A stretch of 64,000 bases of DNA from Nocardioides okcheonensis (GTDB taxonomy: Bacteria; Actinomycetota; Actinomycetes; Propionibacteriales; Nocardioidaceae): assembly GCF_020991065.1 (NCBI RefSeq), contig NZ_CP087710.1, forward strand, positions 2,666,001-2,730,000, read 5' to 3'. The notes under the pieces were generated by a model, which worked only from the letters and a program-made list of their open reading frames with translations, was not told the origin of the DNA and ran no database searches. The position numbers were made by a program, and so were the translations under genes. Numbering within the stretch: position 1 is the first letter of the stretch; every line of letters starts with the position of its first letter. This document shows positions 35,251-57,780 of this stretch, piece after piece.

Positions 35251-36030
35251 ATGCGCGACGTGACCTACCCCCCGATCATCGTCACGGCCAAGGCGGCGTT
35301 CCGGGCGCTGGGCCAGAACTTCCAGATGACCGGAACCGAGCACGTCCCGCGGGACGGCGGCGTGCTGCTGGCCTTCAACCACATCAGCTACGTGGACTTC
35401 GTCTACGGAGGCTTCGCGGCGAACCCGTCCGGCCGCCTGGTCCGCTTCATGGCCAAGCGTGAGCTCTTCGACCACCGCTACGTGGGTCCGCTGATGCGCT
35501 CGCTGCACCACATCGAGGTCGACCGGGGCGAGGGCGTCGCGAGCTTCCACACCGCCGTCGACTACCTGCGCCAGGGGGAGGCCGTCGGGATCTTCCCCGA
35601 GGCGACCATCTCGCGGGCGATGGAGCTCAAGGAGCTCAAGACCGGTGCCGTACGCATCGCGGCCGAGGCCGGCGTACCGCTCGTGCCCGTGATCCTGTGG
35701 GGCACCCAGCGGATGATGACCAAGGACCACCCCCGCGACTTCTCCCGGGGCACGACCATCGCGATCCGGGTCGGCGAGGCGATGCACCCCACGGGCGCCG
35801 ACCCCGTCGCGGAGACCGCCGAGCTCCGCGACCGGATGTCCGCCATGCTCGCGACCACGGTGGCGGAGTACCCGGCCGACGAGCAGCCGCCGGGCTCCTG
35901 GTGGGTCCCGGCGTCGATGGGCGGCAGCGCCCCCACCCTCGAGGAGGCCGCCCGCCTCGACGCCGAGGAGAAGCGGGAGCGGGCCCGCAAGCGTGCCGAG
36001 AAGCGTGCGAAGCGACAGGCCGACTCGTAG
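35251..36030 (+). CDS. 1-acyl-glycerol-3-phosphate acyltransferase family (PlsC-like)
   Basis: A 259-residue acyltransferase. Conserved blocks are NHISYVD (His44, Asp49), the second block FMAKRELFDH, IFPEATIS as block III and VPLVPVILWG as block IV. These enzymes acylate lysophosphatidic acid at the membrane. There is no clear membrane helix, only a hydrophobic N-terminal segment. A Lys/Arg-rich C-terminal helix (KRERARKRAEKRAKRQ) probably binds the membrane or nucleic acid. An inverted repeat just after the stop may be its terminator. Confidence 0.9.
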   Translation: MRDVTYPPIIVTAKAAFRALGQNFQMTGTEHVPRDGGVLLAFNHISYVDFVYGGFAANPSGRLVRFMAKRELFDHRYVGPLMRSLHHIEVDRGEGVASFHTAVDYLRQGEAVGIFPEATISRAMELKELKTGAVRIAAEAGVPLVPVILWGTQRMMTKDHPRDFSRGTTIAIRVGEAMHPTGADPVAETAELRDRMSAMLATTVAEYPADEQPPGSWWVPASMGGSAPTLEEAARLDAEEKRERARKRAEKRAKRQADS

Positions 36031-36073
36031 ACATCTCGACTTGTCGACAGGTCGATCTGTCGCTTTGTCGACA
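36009..36073. repeat. Inverted repeat and TGTCGCTTTGTCGACA element after acyltransferase
   Basis: AAGCGACAG at the end of the gene is inverted as CTGTCGCTT (36057-36065). The right side also holds two TTGTCGACA words and TGTCGCTTTGTCGACA at 36058-36073, which recurs exactly inside dnaA at 43609-43624. Confidence 0.65.
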
Positions 36074-36303
36074 TTTGTCCTGATCCAGCGCGTGGGCTGA
36101 CCAGCCCGCCCAGGCCCTGTCACGCCCTCGGGCGGCCGGCGTCGGCGCCGCCGCGGGCATGGTCCGCACCGGACCGCTCCGCCATCCCGCAGGCCTGCGG
36201 CACCGTCGCAGTCGGCACCGCAGCCCCCGGTGGCCAAGCGACGACCTCCGGGCCGTCCCCGCTACGCGTTCGACGGACGCCCGCACCCCGCCACCGCGGT
36301 CTA

Positions 36304-37494
36304 TCTGAGGACGTCCTGCAGCCCGAACGGCCCTCCGGGACTGCACCACGTCCTCAGACGTCTGGCACGGGCCTTCCAGGGCATGGTTCCCGGACCACCT
36401 GCCGCGGCACGCTCCCGCCGCGGGAACCACCACTGCGGCGCCGGGTCCGACAAGCCGCCAGCAGGTGTCTGAGGACGGCCCTGGACCACAACGGCTCTCC
36501 TGGGTCCCACCCGTCCTCGGATGGGTCGTCTGCGGGGCCTCCAAGGGCAGGCGCGCACCGCGCGCCCACACCTGCAACGCCGACAACCCGTCGACGCCGA
36601 CCCCGCAGCGCCCACCGGCAGCCGGCGGTCGAACACCGGATCACCACCTGCGGGTCATCTGAGGACGCCCTGCAGCCCGGAACGCCGCCCCCAGCTGCAC
36701 CACGTCCCCAGATGTCTAACCGGGGCTCCTCCGGGCATGGCTCCCCGGCCACCCGCCGCGGCACGCTCCGCCGTCGGCCGACCGAAGCAGGCACTGGAAC
36801 CGCCCGGACCAGCTCCGGAAGCCGGCGCCCACGAAGCCGCCAGCGCTGCCTGAGGACGCCCTGGGACCCAGACGGGCTCTCCTGGGTTCCCACTCGTCCT
36901 CAGACAGCTCGTCTGCGGGGCCTCCCATGGCGCGGTCCGCACCGCACGCCGACACCCGCACGCCGACACCCGCGCGCCGCCAACCGCTCAACGCCGACCC
37001 CGGCACCGCCCACGCACAGCCGGCACGTGATCACCCGGCCACCACCTGCGGGTAATCTGAGGACGCCGTGCAGCCCGGAACGCCGTCCCCAGCTGCACCA
37101 CGTCCTCAGACAGCTGGTCCCTCGCCCGGCGAGAGCCGGCGACACCGTCGCAGCCACCCCGAGGCCGCCGGAGCGCGACCACCGCGGACCACCGCCACAC
37201 CGGGCTGTCTGGGGACGCCTCGGGACCAGAACGACCCCCCGAGTCCCACCACGTCCTCAGACAGCTGGTCGTCGGAAGGATCTGGGGTCGGACTCGCCCG
37301 CCGCCCGAGACGCTCGCCGCCGGCTCCGCCCCGACGGCTCGCGAAGATCCGACGGACGCCCTGCGACGTCAGGAGACGCCGTCACCGGTGGGCTGTGACG
37401 TCGCCGGCCCCTGGGCCACGAGAGAGCCAGCCGACGCTGTCTGAGGACGTCCTGCAACCCGAACGGCCCCTCTTGGCTGCACCACGTCCTCAGA
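36304..37494. repeat. Array of seven alternating ~55-nt hairpins (ABABABA) beside parB
   Basis: Seven imperfect palindromes of 54-56 nt start with TCTGAGGACG and end with CGTCCTCAGA or close variants: 36304-36358, 36468-36521, 36658-36712, 36849-36904, 37056-37110, 37208-37261, 37440-37494. Copies 1, 3, 5, 7 share an inner CCTGCAGCCC...CTGCACC (type A). Copies 2, 4, 6 share an inner CTGGGACC...GGTCCCA-like core (type B). Spacers of 97-178 nt are also related between equivalent positions, so the true unit is about 354-398 bp. The 1.5-kb interval 36031-37541 otherwise shows no gene: open frames are repeats of each other without ribosome sites. Confidence 0.88.
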
Positions 37495-37541: not shown

Positions 37542-38537
37542 TCAGATCGGGCGGTCGTTGCGGTTGCGCGGGTCCATCACGTCGACGATGCGGCGCAGGT
37601 CGTCCATGCTGGCGAACTCGACGGTGATCTTCCCCTTGGCCTTGCCGAGGTCGACCCTGACCCGGGTCTCGAGGCGGTCCGAGAGCCGCTCGGCGAGGTC
37701 CTCGAGACCGGGGGCCACCGGGCGCTTGCGCTGCACGCGGGGCGAGGCCTCCTCGACGCCCATCGAGACGATCTCCTCGAGGCCCCGCACCGAGATACCC
37801 TCGGCCGTGACCCGCGCCGCGAGACGGTCCTGCAGGCCGTCGTCGTCGACGCTGAGCAGCGCGCGGGCGTGGCCGGCGGACAGCACGCCGGCGGCGACCC
37901 GGCGCTGGACGGCGGGCGAGAGCTTGAGGAGCCGGAGCGTGTTCGAGATCTGCGGGCGCGATCGACCGATGCGCTGCGCGAGCTCGTCGTGGGTGCAGCC
38001 GAAGTCCTCCAGGAGCTGGCCGTATGCGGCCGCCTCCTCGAGCGGGTTCAGCTGGCTGCGGTGCAGGTTCTCCAGCAGCGCGTCGCGGAGCATGTCGTCG
38101 TCGTCGGTCTCCCGGACGATGGCGGGGATCGTGTCGCGTCCCGCCTCCTGCGACGCACGCCAGCGCCGCTCACCCATGATCAGCTCATAGGCCTCGTCCC
38201 CGGTCCGCCGCACCACGACCGGCTGCAGCAGCCCGACCTCACGGATCGAGTGGACGAGCTCGGCGAGCGCCTCCTCCTCGAACACCTGGCGCGGCTGGCG
38301 GGCGTTCGGCCGCACCTGGCCGATCGGCAGCTCGGCGAAGTACGCCCCGGCCACCGTCGCCGGCTCCGCATCCGGCCGTCCGGCCGCGCCCCCAGCCGTC
38401 CGATCACCCGCGGCTGCCGCCTCGACGGCCGCGGTGGTCGCCGACGTGGGCGCCTCGGCCGGCGTCGGCGCGGGACCGGTGGGGATGAGCGAACCGAGCC
38501 CTCGGCCCAGGCCTCGACGCGGCGGGGTGCTGCTCAT
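37542..38537 (-). CDS. parB: Chromosome-partitioning protein ParB
   Basis: A 331-residue CTP-dependent DNA clamp that loads at parS and spreads to build the origin segregation complex. After an N-terminal ParA-activating head ([13 protein letters not shown]) and an Ala-rich linker come the CTP-binding region with GERRWRA and [14 protein letters not shown], the helix-turn-helix with [16 protein letters not shown] (about 185-205), and a C-terminal dimer domain (about 285-331). Four parS sites lie within 3 kb. ATG 38537 overlaps the parA stop by 4 nt. The hairpin array starts just beyond its 3' end. Confidence 0.96.
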
Positions 38538-39724
38538 GCGGTGGCTCCTCTGCTCCTGCCGGCGATCTCGCGGGCCGCCTCCAGGTAGGAGAGCGCGCCT
38601 GCCGACGCAGGATCGTAGGTCATGACGGTCTGCCCGTAGGACGGCGCCTCCGACACGCGCACCGATCGGGGCACGGCCGTGCGGAGCACCTGGTCCCCGA
38701 AGTGCGACCGCACCTCCTCGGCCACGCCCGCCGCGAGGCGGGTGCGCGCGTCGTACATGGTCAGCAGGATCGTCGAGACCTCGAGCTGCGGGTTGAGGTG
38801 CTGGCGCACCATCTCGACGGTCTCGAGCAGCTGGCCCAGCCCCTCCAGCGCGTAGTACTCCGCCTGGATCGGAATGAACATCTCCCGTCCGGCGACCAGT
38901 GCGTTGAGGGTGAGCAGGCCGAGGGAAGGCGGGCAGTCGACGAAGACGTAGTCGAACCGGTCGTCTCCGACCTCCGCGGCGCTGCCGACGAGCGGGTGGG
39001 CGTTGATCGCACGGGCGAGGCGCTGCTCGCGCGCGACGACGCTCACCAGCTCGATCTCGGCGCCGGCCAGGTCGATCGTGGCCGGGACCACCCAGAGCCC
39101 GGGCAGGTCACCGCACTCGGTCATCACGTCGGCGAGGGCGTGGCCGTCGACGAGCATGTCGTAGGTCGACGGCACCCCGCGGTGGTGGTCGATGCTCAGC
39201 GCCGTGGAGGCGTTGCCCTGTGGATCGAGGTCGATGACCAGGACCTTCTGGCCGAGCTGGGCGAGGCCCGCGGCGACGTTGACGGTTGAGGTGGTCTTGC
39301 CGACGCCGCCCTTCTGGTTGGCCACGACGAAGACCCGGGTGGCGTCGGGGCGCGGGACGCCCTGGCGTCGGAGGCCGCCCGTGCGCGCCAGCACGGAGTG
39401 CTGCGCGGCCTGCGCGAGCGGCGTGTTGTGGTGCTCGAAGTCGTCGTGCCCGGCGGCCAGGTCGGCCGCCGTACGCACCTGCCAGGCCGGCTTGGTTTCA
39501 CGTGGAACATCGGCGCCGGTTTCACGTGAAACGTTCGCAGCGGTTTCACGTGAAACGCCGGCCGGCGTCGTGCCACCAGAGACCTCCGCGGACGACCCAG
39601 CCTGTGGATGAACTGCCCCAACCTGTGGAGACTCCCGCTCAGCACCCGTGTTCCAACCGGTGGAAAACTCCGAGTCACGTTCCTGGGAGGCCGGGCGCGA
39701 ACCCTGCTCCGGACCGTCGGTCAC
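38534..39724 (-). CDS. parA: Chromosome-partitioning ATPase ParA
   Basis: A 396-residue Walker-type ATPase that moves ParB-parS complexes over the nucleoid. The deviant Walker A KGGVGKTT (about residue 140) sits in [20 protein letters not shown], with [11 protein letters not shown] and [16 protein letters not shown] following. About 125 residues precede the ATPase core, more than in most ParA proteins. That extension holds three 8-residue repeats with VSRET, VSRET and VPRET, encoded by three parS sites 24 bp apart. GTG 39724 is 1 bp after the rsmG stop. Confidence 0.95.
39494..39509. promoter_or_regulatory. parS site 1 (in parA coding sequence)
   Basis: GGTTTCACGTGGAACA matches the ParB-binding consensus TGTTTCACGTGAAACA at 14 of 16. 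It encodes part of the parA N-terminal repeat. Confidence 0.85.
39518..39533. promoter_or_regulatory. parS site 2 (in parA coding sequence)
   Basis: GGTTTCACGTGAAACG has the full TTTCACGTGAAA core; exactly 24 bp from site 1. Confidence 0.93.
39542..39557. promoter_or_regulatory. parS site 3 (in parA coding sequence)
   Basis: GGTTTCACGTGAAACG, identical to site 2 and again exactly 24 bp away. Confidence 0.93.
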
Positions 39725-39725
39725 G

Positions 39726-40463
39726 TCACTTCACCTTTCGCTGGGCGGTACGCCGACCCCGGCGCTGCGAACCCGCACGCGTGCTGCCTGCCAGGGGCCA
39801 ACCTATCTGGGACGGATCCGCCCACGGCACCCGCACCAGGGTCGTCGGCGGATCGACGATCCCGTCGCCGACCACGCTCACCTCCGGGGTGCCGCACCGG
39901 TACTGCGCGAGGACGGATCCAGCGGCCTCGATCTCGTCGGTGACGCTCTGGCCCTTCATCGCCACCAGCGCCCCGTGGGCGGCCACGAGGGGCATCGACC
40001 ACGTGAGCAGCCGCTCGAGCGGGGCGACCGCGCGTGAGGTGACCACGTCGAAGGTGTCGACGCCGTGCAGCGACTCCGCCCGCCCCCGGACGACGCGGAC
40101 GTGGTCGAGGGAGAGCTCGGCGACGACCTCCTCGAGGAAGGTCGTCCGCCGCAGCAACGGCTCCACCAGGGTCACCCGGGTGTCGGGCCGCGCGATCGCC
40201 AGGACCAGCCCGGGCAGCCCGGCCCCGGTGCCGATGTCGCACACCGAGGCTCCGTCGGGGATCGCCTCGGCCATCACGGCGGAGTTGAGCACGTGGCGCT
40301 CCCACAACCGGGGAGCCTCCCGCGGACCGATCAGGCCGCGTACGACCCCCTCGGTCGCCAGCAGCGCGGTGTAGCGCTCGGCGAGCGGCAGGCGCTCGGA
40401 CGCGAACACCCTCCGCGCCACCTCGGGCACGGAGGGTGTTTCACGTGAAACGTCGTCGCTCAC
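39726..40463 (-). CDS. rsmG: 16S rRNA (guanine-527-N7)-methyltransferase RsmG
   Basis: A 245-residue SAM-dependent enzyme (GidB) that methylates G527 of 16S rRNA. The SAM motif is VCDIGTGAGLPGLVLA (about 72-87), preceded by LWERHVLNSA and followed by VRVVRGRAES and VVTSRAVAPLERLL. The N-terminus DDVSRETP is encoded by a parS site. A basic C-terminal tail of about 20 residues is added. Loss of this methylation gives low-level streptomycin resistance in other species. GTG 40463 overlaps the jag stop. Confidence 0.96.
   Translation of the reverse strand: MSDDVSRETPSVPEVARRVFASERLPLAERYTALLATEGVVRGLIGPREAPRLWERHVLNSAVMAEAIPDGASVCDIGTGAGLPGLVLAIARPDTRVTLVEPLLRRTTFLEEVVAELSLDHVRVVRGRAESLHGVDTFDVVTSRAVAPLERLLTWSMPLVAAHGALVAMKGQSVTDEIEAAGSVLAQYRCGTPEVSVVGDGIVDPPTTLVRVPWADPSQIGWPLAGSTRAGSQRRGRRTAQRKVK
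40437..40452. promoter_or_regulatory. parS site 4 (in rsmG coding sequence)
   Basis: TGTTTCACGTGAAACG matches the 16-bp consensus at 15 positions and encodes the VSRET of the RsmG N-terminus. Confidence 0.95.
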
Positions 40464-57426: not shown

Positions 57427-57780
57427 AGCGGTGCGTGAGCCACCTTTCGTACGCGGAGAATGTGGGTGGGACACCTCTCGCGGGTGTGTCGACCCCGGAC
57501 ACGCCACGAGCGGTGCCCCAGCCACAGTCCGTACGCACGGAGTGTGGGTGGGCCACCGCTGGGCCGCGCGTCGCTCGCGGATACGCCGGGAGCGGTGCGC
57601 CAGCCACGTTCCGTACGCGCGGAAAGTGGGTGGGACACCGCCAGCGGTGCGTGAGGGGGCTTCTCGAGCACCGGAATCCCCCTCACGCACCGCTCATGGG
57701 CGGGTCGGCCCCGGACACGACACCGGGCGGTGCGTGAAGGGGGTTTTCCGCTCGGGGAATCCTCCTCACGCACCGCCCGG
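57427..57780. repeat. Tandem array of five palindromic units, 82-bp period
   Basis: Units start at about 57427, 57509, 57591, 57643 and 57726 (steps 82, 82, 52, 83), each opening with (A)GCGGTGCG or a variant. Units 1-3 share GTACGC in the loop and GTGGGTGGG in the right arm. Unit 4 has perfect 17-bp arms AGCGGTGCGTGAGGGGG / CCCCCTCACGCACCGCT (57643-57659, 57678-57694). Unit 5 has 15-bp arms (57723-57737, 57766-57780). It fills the gap between two converging genes; 57396-57797 holds no gene. Confidence 0.88.

Follow-up and report, generated by a model that had tools for sequence, protein, structure and literature searches.

A hairpin array between parB and a convergent gene

The window, that is the whole stretch of 64,000 nucleotides that was analysed, carries parB and a parA-type ATPase gene close to a group of parS matches, and the gap between parB and a convergent acyltransferase gene holds seven palindromes of two alternating types. 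The features of the locus are listed below, strands being given for the genes only.

35254..36030, + strand: acyltransferase gene (PF01553), its 3' end forming one array boundary
36304..36358: hairpin A1, class 2, measuring 55 nt from arm end to arm end and about 65 nt as a complete unit
36468..36521: hairpin B1, 54 nt, with a variant inner stem that among the listed sites occurs only at parB
36658..36712: hairpin A2, 55 nt
36849..36904: hairpin B2, 56 nt
37056..37110: hairpin A3, 55 nt
37208..37261: hairpin B3, 54 nt
37440..37494: hairpin A4, 55 nt, its 65-nt unit ending 43 nt short of the parB stop
36296..37114: array section A1-B1-A2-B2-A3, whose spacers show tandem duplication
37542..38537, - strand: parB (PF02195, PF17762, PF23552), the convergent neighbour
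38534..39724, - strand: parA-type ATPase gene
39495..40451: parS matches at 39495 (1 mismatch), 39519, 39543 and 40438, outside the array

A sequence-only reading of this locus had described seven palindromes of 54-56 nt at 36304-37494 in strict A/B alternation, and all seven were recovered in the order ABABABA, with the shared outer arms TCTGAGGACG/CGTCCTCAGA changed by single substitutions in B1, A2, B2 and B3. The two types are distinguished by the inner stem, which is of the TGCAGCC type in A and of the GGGACC type in B. The array was rightly placed between convergent genes at a distance of about 2 kb from parS (the nearest matches, at 39495-39556, are 2.0 kb away), whereas the gap is 1511 bp long (stop 36030 to stop 37542) and not 1.2 kb. 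The proposed relatedness of the spacers applies to A1-B1/A2-B2 (69% identity) and B1-A2/B2-A3 (79%), but not to the remaining pairs among the six spacers, which reach 45-63%, like and unlike pairs alike. These identities would agree with a duplicated unit of about 354-398 bp in the section from A1 to A3, whereas B3 and A4 would be older or have been placed independently. A CRISPR, already discounted in that reading, was rejected on inspection because of the irregular and partly duplicated spacers. The array hairpins are predicted to be stable on both strands, with folding energies of -31 to -48 kcal/mol for the better strand with 10 nt of flank, and the + strand scored better with the covariance model in all seven.

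Directly 3' of the acyltransferase stop, two TTGTCGACA boxes were seen (window 36036-36090), which we take to be DnaA-box-like, and similar GTCGACAAAG motifs occur at the same place in several relatives. The motif TTGTCSACA has nine matches in the window versus 0.28 expected.

The parB locus in related genomes

In the following, P denotes the dispersed palindromic repeat family that includes the array hairpins, G000 the genome under study (4,471,533 bp), assigned to Nocardioides through the named relatives of its ParB, and G021 its nearest relative. Among 30 parB loci searched, clear P copies were found only in G021, one A-like and one B-like, besides marginal matches at two other loci (E 0.009 and 0.037). 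The array itself was seen in G000 only, the form at parB in G021 comprising two hairpins. The gap between parB and the acyltransferase gene, for which a strand-aware measurement yielded a value at 17 of 25 parB loci, comprises 439 bp in G021 and 105-171 bp in the P carriers G005, G016, G018 and G029, and no P copy lies within 1.5 kb of parB in these four. The B-type inner stem turned up at no site other than parB, in G000 and G021, and the array spacers are unrelated to those of G021. Repeated duplication of a bipartite palindromic element, one of the origins suggested from the letters of the locus, is supported by the single A-like plus B-like pair in G021 and by the tandem duplication of part of the spacers; hence, the array looks like a local amplification of an A-B pair that is single at parB in G021. 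Inside the array no parS motif was detected at up to 2 mismatches, the four matches of the window all lying at 39495-40451.

The same gap holds other things in other species. In L062 and L076 (G012, no P match; Nocardioides cremeus) it contains different long palindromes with arms like TTCATCGGCCGGCCGATGAA, and in Nocardioides sp. B-3 (L142:6951-8923) it extends over 1932 bp and includes an ORF, presumably transposase-like, parB being split in the rough gene calls.

Dispersal of the P family

The search of the whole genome and its relatives, which the sequence-only reading had proposed, found the hairpin dispersed in G000 and in part of the genus. The 10-nt arm TCTGAGGACG has 39 exact matches in G000, many of them as inverted pairs at fixed distance, while its reversed control pattern has 0; together with the E-values of the covariance model this excludes a chance origin. 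Model R1, which was built from 23 hairpins with all seven array copies among them, gave E-values of 2e-20 to 2e-15 for six array copies and 2e-11 for B1. In the complete G000 sequence it returned 72 matches at E<=1, which correspond to 37 distinct sites after merging both strands (35 of them at E<=1e-5) and to 28 loci when merged at 2 kb. Thirty of the 37 sites lie outside the parB array, and only 3 of the 39 exact arm matches fall outside the sites found by the model. When the entire 1511-bp gap was used as query in a DNA search, it was mainly the hairpin that recurred, the spacers giving scattered short matches only. Clusters of two to four hairpins also exist elsewhere, in G000 (L013, L015), G021 (L161, L164), G066 (L211) and G157 (L205).

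Applied to 58 genomes, R1 found matches in its own genome, in 6 of 36 others of the genus and in 0 of 21 from other genera. One carrier is doubtful, since the single weak R1 match of G015 (L230:2043-2096) is a different, nearly perfect palindrome with GATCACGACGTTCTGCAGG arms. The wider model R2 matched 36 of 147 Nocardioides genomes, 17 of them with at least 10 matches, and 20 of 196 genomes in a survey across the order; outside the genus five genomes gave 1-5 matches each at E about 1e-7 to 1e-8. Because only the best candidates per genome were scored, copy numbers in the other species are floors, and the genomes with one or two matches include some that are counted by score alone. Alignment A4 contains 150 of the 152 matches of its search, whose input did not include L150-L153, and many of these are the two strands of one hairpin. 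An exact pattern scan of GTDB returned 0 matches, but near records may be omitted there, so this is no proof of absence.

Hairpin architecture and arm conservation

The P unit comprises about 64-66 bp. Its inverted arms, each about 25 nt long, enclose a loop that is free in sequence and measures 13-16 nt depending on how the stem end is defined. Two classes occur side by side in several species, class 1 with 66 nt and TATCTnnGGACGTTCTGGTGGG, class 2 with 65 nt and TCTGAGGACGTCCTGCAGCC in G000 or TATCTGAGGACGTGGTGGACG elsewhere. The length is nearly fixed: in 90 hairpins, counted without L152, 49 have 65 nt and 32 have 66 nt, and the class-1 arm spacing among the matches listed is 39 nt, with 38 or 40 in a few. 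An outer helix (positions 2-15) is followed by a stretch at 16-18 that is often unpaired and in much of class 2 reads CC facing CC, then by an inner helix (19-25) and the free loop. The motif GGACG (positions 11-15) shows 95-100% conservation across 258 arms.

Each arm pairs with its own partner at 84.3% of 138 x 24 positions, compared to 81.4% when right arms were shuffled within genome and class, the highest of 2000 shuffles being 83.0%. Since the shuffled pairing is nearly as high, the arms chiefly share a common motif, and a small true pairing excess is left. Strong RNA covariation, which a first count of 83% versus 77% shuffled had indicated, was rejected in this way as mostly a common-motif effect, and the covariation check suggested by the sequence-only reading thus ended in a weak excess. 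For the pairing count as well as the direct-repeat and T-run counts below, L152 (truncated), L230 (the different palindrome) and L222 (an identical contig copy) were left out. No Rfam family came near its gathering threshold, the best hits reaching 26.8 bits against 50 and 24.2 against 78.

Placement relative to genes and terminator features

With gene calls from a rough codon model trained on the window, 91 P sites in five genomes are found in convergent (43), co-directional (39) and divergent (6) gaps or inside ORFs (3); in G000, 7 of the 19 convergent sites are those of the array. The stop codon of a neighbour lies within 30 nt at 48 of the 91 sites and within 60 nt at 58, whereas 14 are more than 120 nt away, including 6 array copies. 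At 269-633 nt from any stop codon, six of the seven array copies thus depart from the other P sites. A strong hairpin near the stop codon, as expected of a terminator lacking U residues, is hence the usual situation except for these six. One hairpin, L014:2039-2103, lies directly upstream of a gene that we take to be amidase-like; a longer ORF starting before this hairpin could also include it.

A T-run is missing 3' of the hairpins, where the mean best T count in 8 nt is 1.34 (276 flanks) versus 1.57 in 550 controls, so P hairpins are not canonical intrinsic terminators. The former statement that the array is not a simple terminator would agree with the missing T-run; the placement, on the other hand, is that of 3'-end hairpins.

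Strong hairpins are common in the convergent gaps of G000 that were surveyed. The survey covered 189 kb, made up of the window and seven loci (L247-L253) that were picked by synteny and not randomly, with the array gap excluded. A stem above all 30 shuffles was present in 19 of the 20 convergent gaps measuring 30-500 nt, compared to 11 of 47 gaps between co-directional genes and 6 of 28 between divergent ones. Counting the window alone, all 6 convergent gaps in this size range have such a stem. Most of the strong hairpins in the convergent gaps surveyed are not P; two more dispersed families, X and Y, account for 6 of the 20 convergent hairpins. Family X has arms GTAGTCCAGTGAGGGATGGCTG (up to 3 mismatches), inverted and typically 39 nt apart, which are found as direct repeats with a distance of 32 nt as well and then build nested palindromes; the arms number 43 in G000, 0 in G021, 15 in G016, 14 in G029 and 2 in G018, with 0 matches for the control pattern. 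Family Y has arms GCGGTGCGTGAGGGGGAT (up to 2 mismatches), inverted and typically 32 nt apart, and forms doublets 83 nt apart at several G000 sites; 42 arms were counted in G000, 18 in G021 and 19 in G018, against 1 control match in G000. As both exist in the same genome, P is one of several families. Within the window, an X hairpin is located at 2283-2343 and a Y doublet at 57644-57776.

Inheritance, exchange and loss of copies

Nineteen groups of P copies at the same gene junction join G000 with another species, 7 of them spanning at least three species, on the basis of at least one orthologous neighbour identified by protein comparison (a few rows, L189 and L192, have only one). One junction, between a pstB-like and a phosphate-permease-like gene, is common to all five genomes. 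In 6 of the 7 groups with three or more species, the copies do not all belong to the same class.

For 17 orthologous G000/G021 pairs, selected without the pstB-side and parB copies, the length is equal in 13, and in these the identity amounts to 322/364 in the outer arms, 168/182 in the inner arms and 127/203 in the loops. Loops of different copies within one genome are merely 39-41% identical; the closer loops of the orthologous pairs and the conserved arms hence indicate vertical descent of P copies. Both sides of a stem pair changed in 15 cases versus 4.5 expected, with Watson-Crick pairing kept in only 6 of the 15. In the pair L158/L165, class 1 stands opposite class 2 and the loops are unlike.

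Copies are also gained or lost. The 64-nt G021 hairpin L167-2693 is absent from G000 as a unit, the flanks being 92-93% identical and free of a duplication, while L155 and L013-1806 are absent from G021 along with some flanking bases. In eight gaps that were tested in the second genome of a comparison, a stem above all 100 shuffles was present in five and not in three. The five stems include a member of family X (L248), one of family Y (L249) and L012 in G021, where the right P arm is still visible by eye. At the L154 junction in G021 an inverted repeat GGTTGAGG..CCTCGAAACC can be recognised by eye, although the ungapped stem is not above shuffles. Of 137 copies, only two have strong direct repeats at their flanks, L013-6314 (36 nt, abutting the hairpin) and L161-2148, and mismatched flank controls gave 2 of 1091 at the same level; L201-2009 was left out of this test, being too near a contig end. 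At L013:6277-6412 the 36-nt copy of the neighbouring gene end abuts both sides of the hairpin, which looks like a joint duplication of the two.

Interpretation

The array is probably best understood as a tandemly enlarged local cluster of non-autonomous, REP-like palindromic P repeats that would occupy 3'-end slots and act as U-less bidirectional terminators, a reading to which we assign a probability of roughly 0.68. P would then be non-autonomous mobile (or recombination-copied) DNA, which might persist at gene 3' ends because the long hairpin could serve as bidirectional U-less terminator or as RNA 3'-end cap, and such a role would make hairpins of different families interchangeable. The ABABABA order at parB would have arisen by amplification of an ancestral A-B pair, which G021 still has as a single pair. 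The placement, the exchange with other hairpins and the presence of hairpins in nearly all convergent gaps examined suggest that P hairpins most likely end or protect transcripts from both sides, and we infer that the elements are mobile or copied by recombination. Several observations do not fit easily. The T-run is missing, the empty sites show that a 3'-end slot can go without a hairpin, all but one of the seven array copies lie at a distance from stop codons, and a pure terminator would presumably have no need of a constant arm motif, whereas GGACG hardly varies. In a wider form, several unrelated mobile hairpin families with constant element length, among them P, X and Y, would compete for the 3'-end slot as exchangeable bidirectional terminators and be copied by a non-RAYT enzyme; this extension is tentative, and we would give it somewhat less than an even chance.

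The strongest competitor takes P as purely selfish, REPIN- or MITE-like mobile hairpins without any role at gene ends, whose placement reflects nothing but tolerated insertion. The contrast of family X between G000 and its close relative G021, the exact insertion or loss of a unit at L167-2693, the clusters and adjacent copies, and the slots that are hairpin-free in one species would all be expected from it. We nevertheless regard it as less likely than the terminator reading, because positions are common to several species, arms are kept while loops drift, and strong hairpins, mostly non-P, fill the convergent gaps, whereas few of the divergent gaps, which are likewise non-coding, have one.

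Alternatively, the palindromes might be binding sites in duplex DNA, with the arms as half-sites, inverted at fixed helical spacing, for a putative nucleoid, segregation or regulatory protein. The constancy of GGACG, a loop free in sequence yet near-fixed in length, and arms that track the genome- or class-specific motif more than their own partner would agree with such sites, and so would the genomic distribution: 20 of the 28 G000 loci cluster within 0.8 Mb (G000:C1 2.03-2.83 Mb), the majority of them to one side of the origin region, compared to at most 16 in 5000 random placements, the width having been picked after the data were seen. Clustering at the origin region was found for family X (P 0.007) and less clearly for family Y (P 0.07). 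Protein binding appears improbable all the same, given that the copies lie at gene ends and not at promoters or parS, that the same gap may be occupied by a P copy of the other class or by a hairpin unrelated to P, and that families X and Y have a similar architecture but other arms.

That the whole 1.2-kb array is a transcribed structured non-coding RNA is very improbable: stable hairpins on both strands and the excess of two-sided stem changes, with its modest share of Watson-Crick pairs, speak for it, but the array exists in G000 only with two hairpins in G021, the spacers are unrelated to those of G021 and partly to each other, and the small pairing excess and the Rfam result weaken the idea as first put forward. 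Least credible is a structure specific to the parABS region that would associate with ParB or organise the nucleoid, also raised by the sequence-only reading, since the proximity to parS, the two copies at parB in G021 and the restriction of B-type inner stems to parB are outweighed by the 30 of 37 sites elsewhere, by clear copies in G021 alone (1 of 30 parB loci), by the ordinary gaps of the four carriers with no P copy near parB, and by parS lying outside the array.

If the U-less terminator reading holds true, much of the 3'-end architecture in this GC-rich genus would consist of scattered families of hairpins whose members replace one another at constant positions. It would also link selfish palindromes to terminators and hint at how a genome poor in U-tract terminators might end its convergent transcripts. 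The exact empty site and the exchanged slots in close species could furthermore serve as a system for finding non-RAYT copying of short hairpins.

Comparison with known systems

Dispersed extragenic palindromes are of a known kind, but for long hairpins of near-fixed length, with several families that share 3'-end slots and without RAYT, we found no published description, nor did we find one of the Nocardioides P hairpins in a literature search whose scope excluded most subscription papers and all preprints.

With MITEs, P shares inverted arms and the presence or absence of the element as a unit. It differs in that target-site duplications are not the rule, direct repeats standing beside 2 of 137 copies and the empty site being free of a duplication. 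A further possible difference is that each of the 21 class-1 arm matches of G000 forms part of a hairpin and none the end of a longer element. A MITE with target duplication was rejected on account of the flank-controlled repeat count. The DNA uptake sequences of Neisseria and Haemophilus, touched on in PMC2267715, resemble P as multi-copy inverted pairs after genes, but P arms are much longer, the copies are far fewer, and only three of the exact arm matches lie outside the hairpin sites.

Closer is the likeness to REP and REPIN elements. According to one account (PMC3733652), REPs adjoin the 3' ends of ORFs, REP dimers can fold as one large hairpin, and a GTAG or CGTC tag defines the element, the CGTC families having stems of 8-9 bp and loops of 4-5 nt. 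P likewise represents dispersed non-coding palindromes with several families per genome, situated at gene 3' ends in convergent and co-directional gaps and with few copies in divergent ones (6 of 91). In contrast, P is a single long hairpin with arms of about 25 nt and some tens of copies only, and by inspection it has no terminal tag of the kind used in that definition (PMC3733652). A RAYT-linked REPIN was rejected, because a Y1 (HUH) transposase of the RAYT kind (PF01797) was matched in 0 of 16 genomes at E<=0.01, the positive control giving matches in 6 of 14 known genomes.

Finally, P resembles U-less (I-shaped) or bidirectional terminators as a GC-rich stem-loop near the stop codon without a U-tract, and differs from them in its sequence-conserved, multi-copy arms, termination being a putative role in the case of P. 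For one Nocardioides sp., PMC2965389 gives 30 predicted U-tract terminators. In Streptomyces clavuligerus, 353 structured transcript ends lacking U are reported in PMC8269248, and P hairpins without a T-run would fit such ends.
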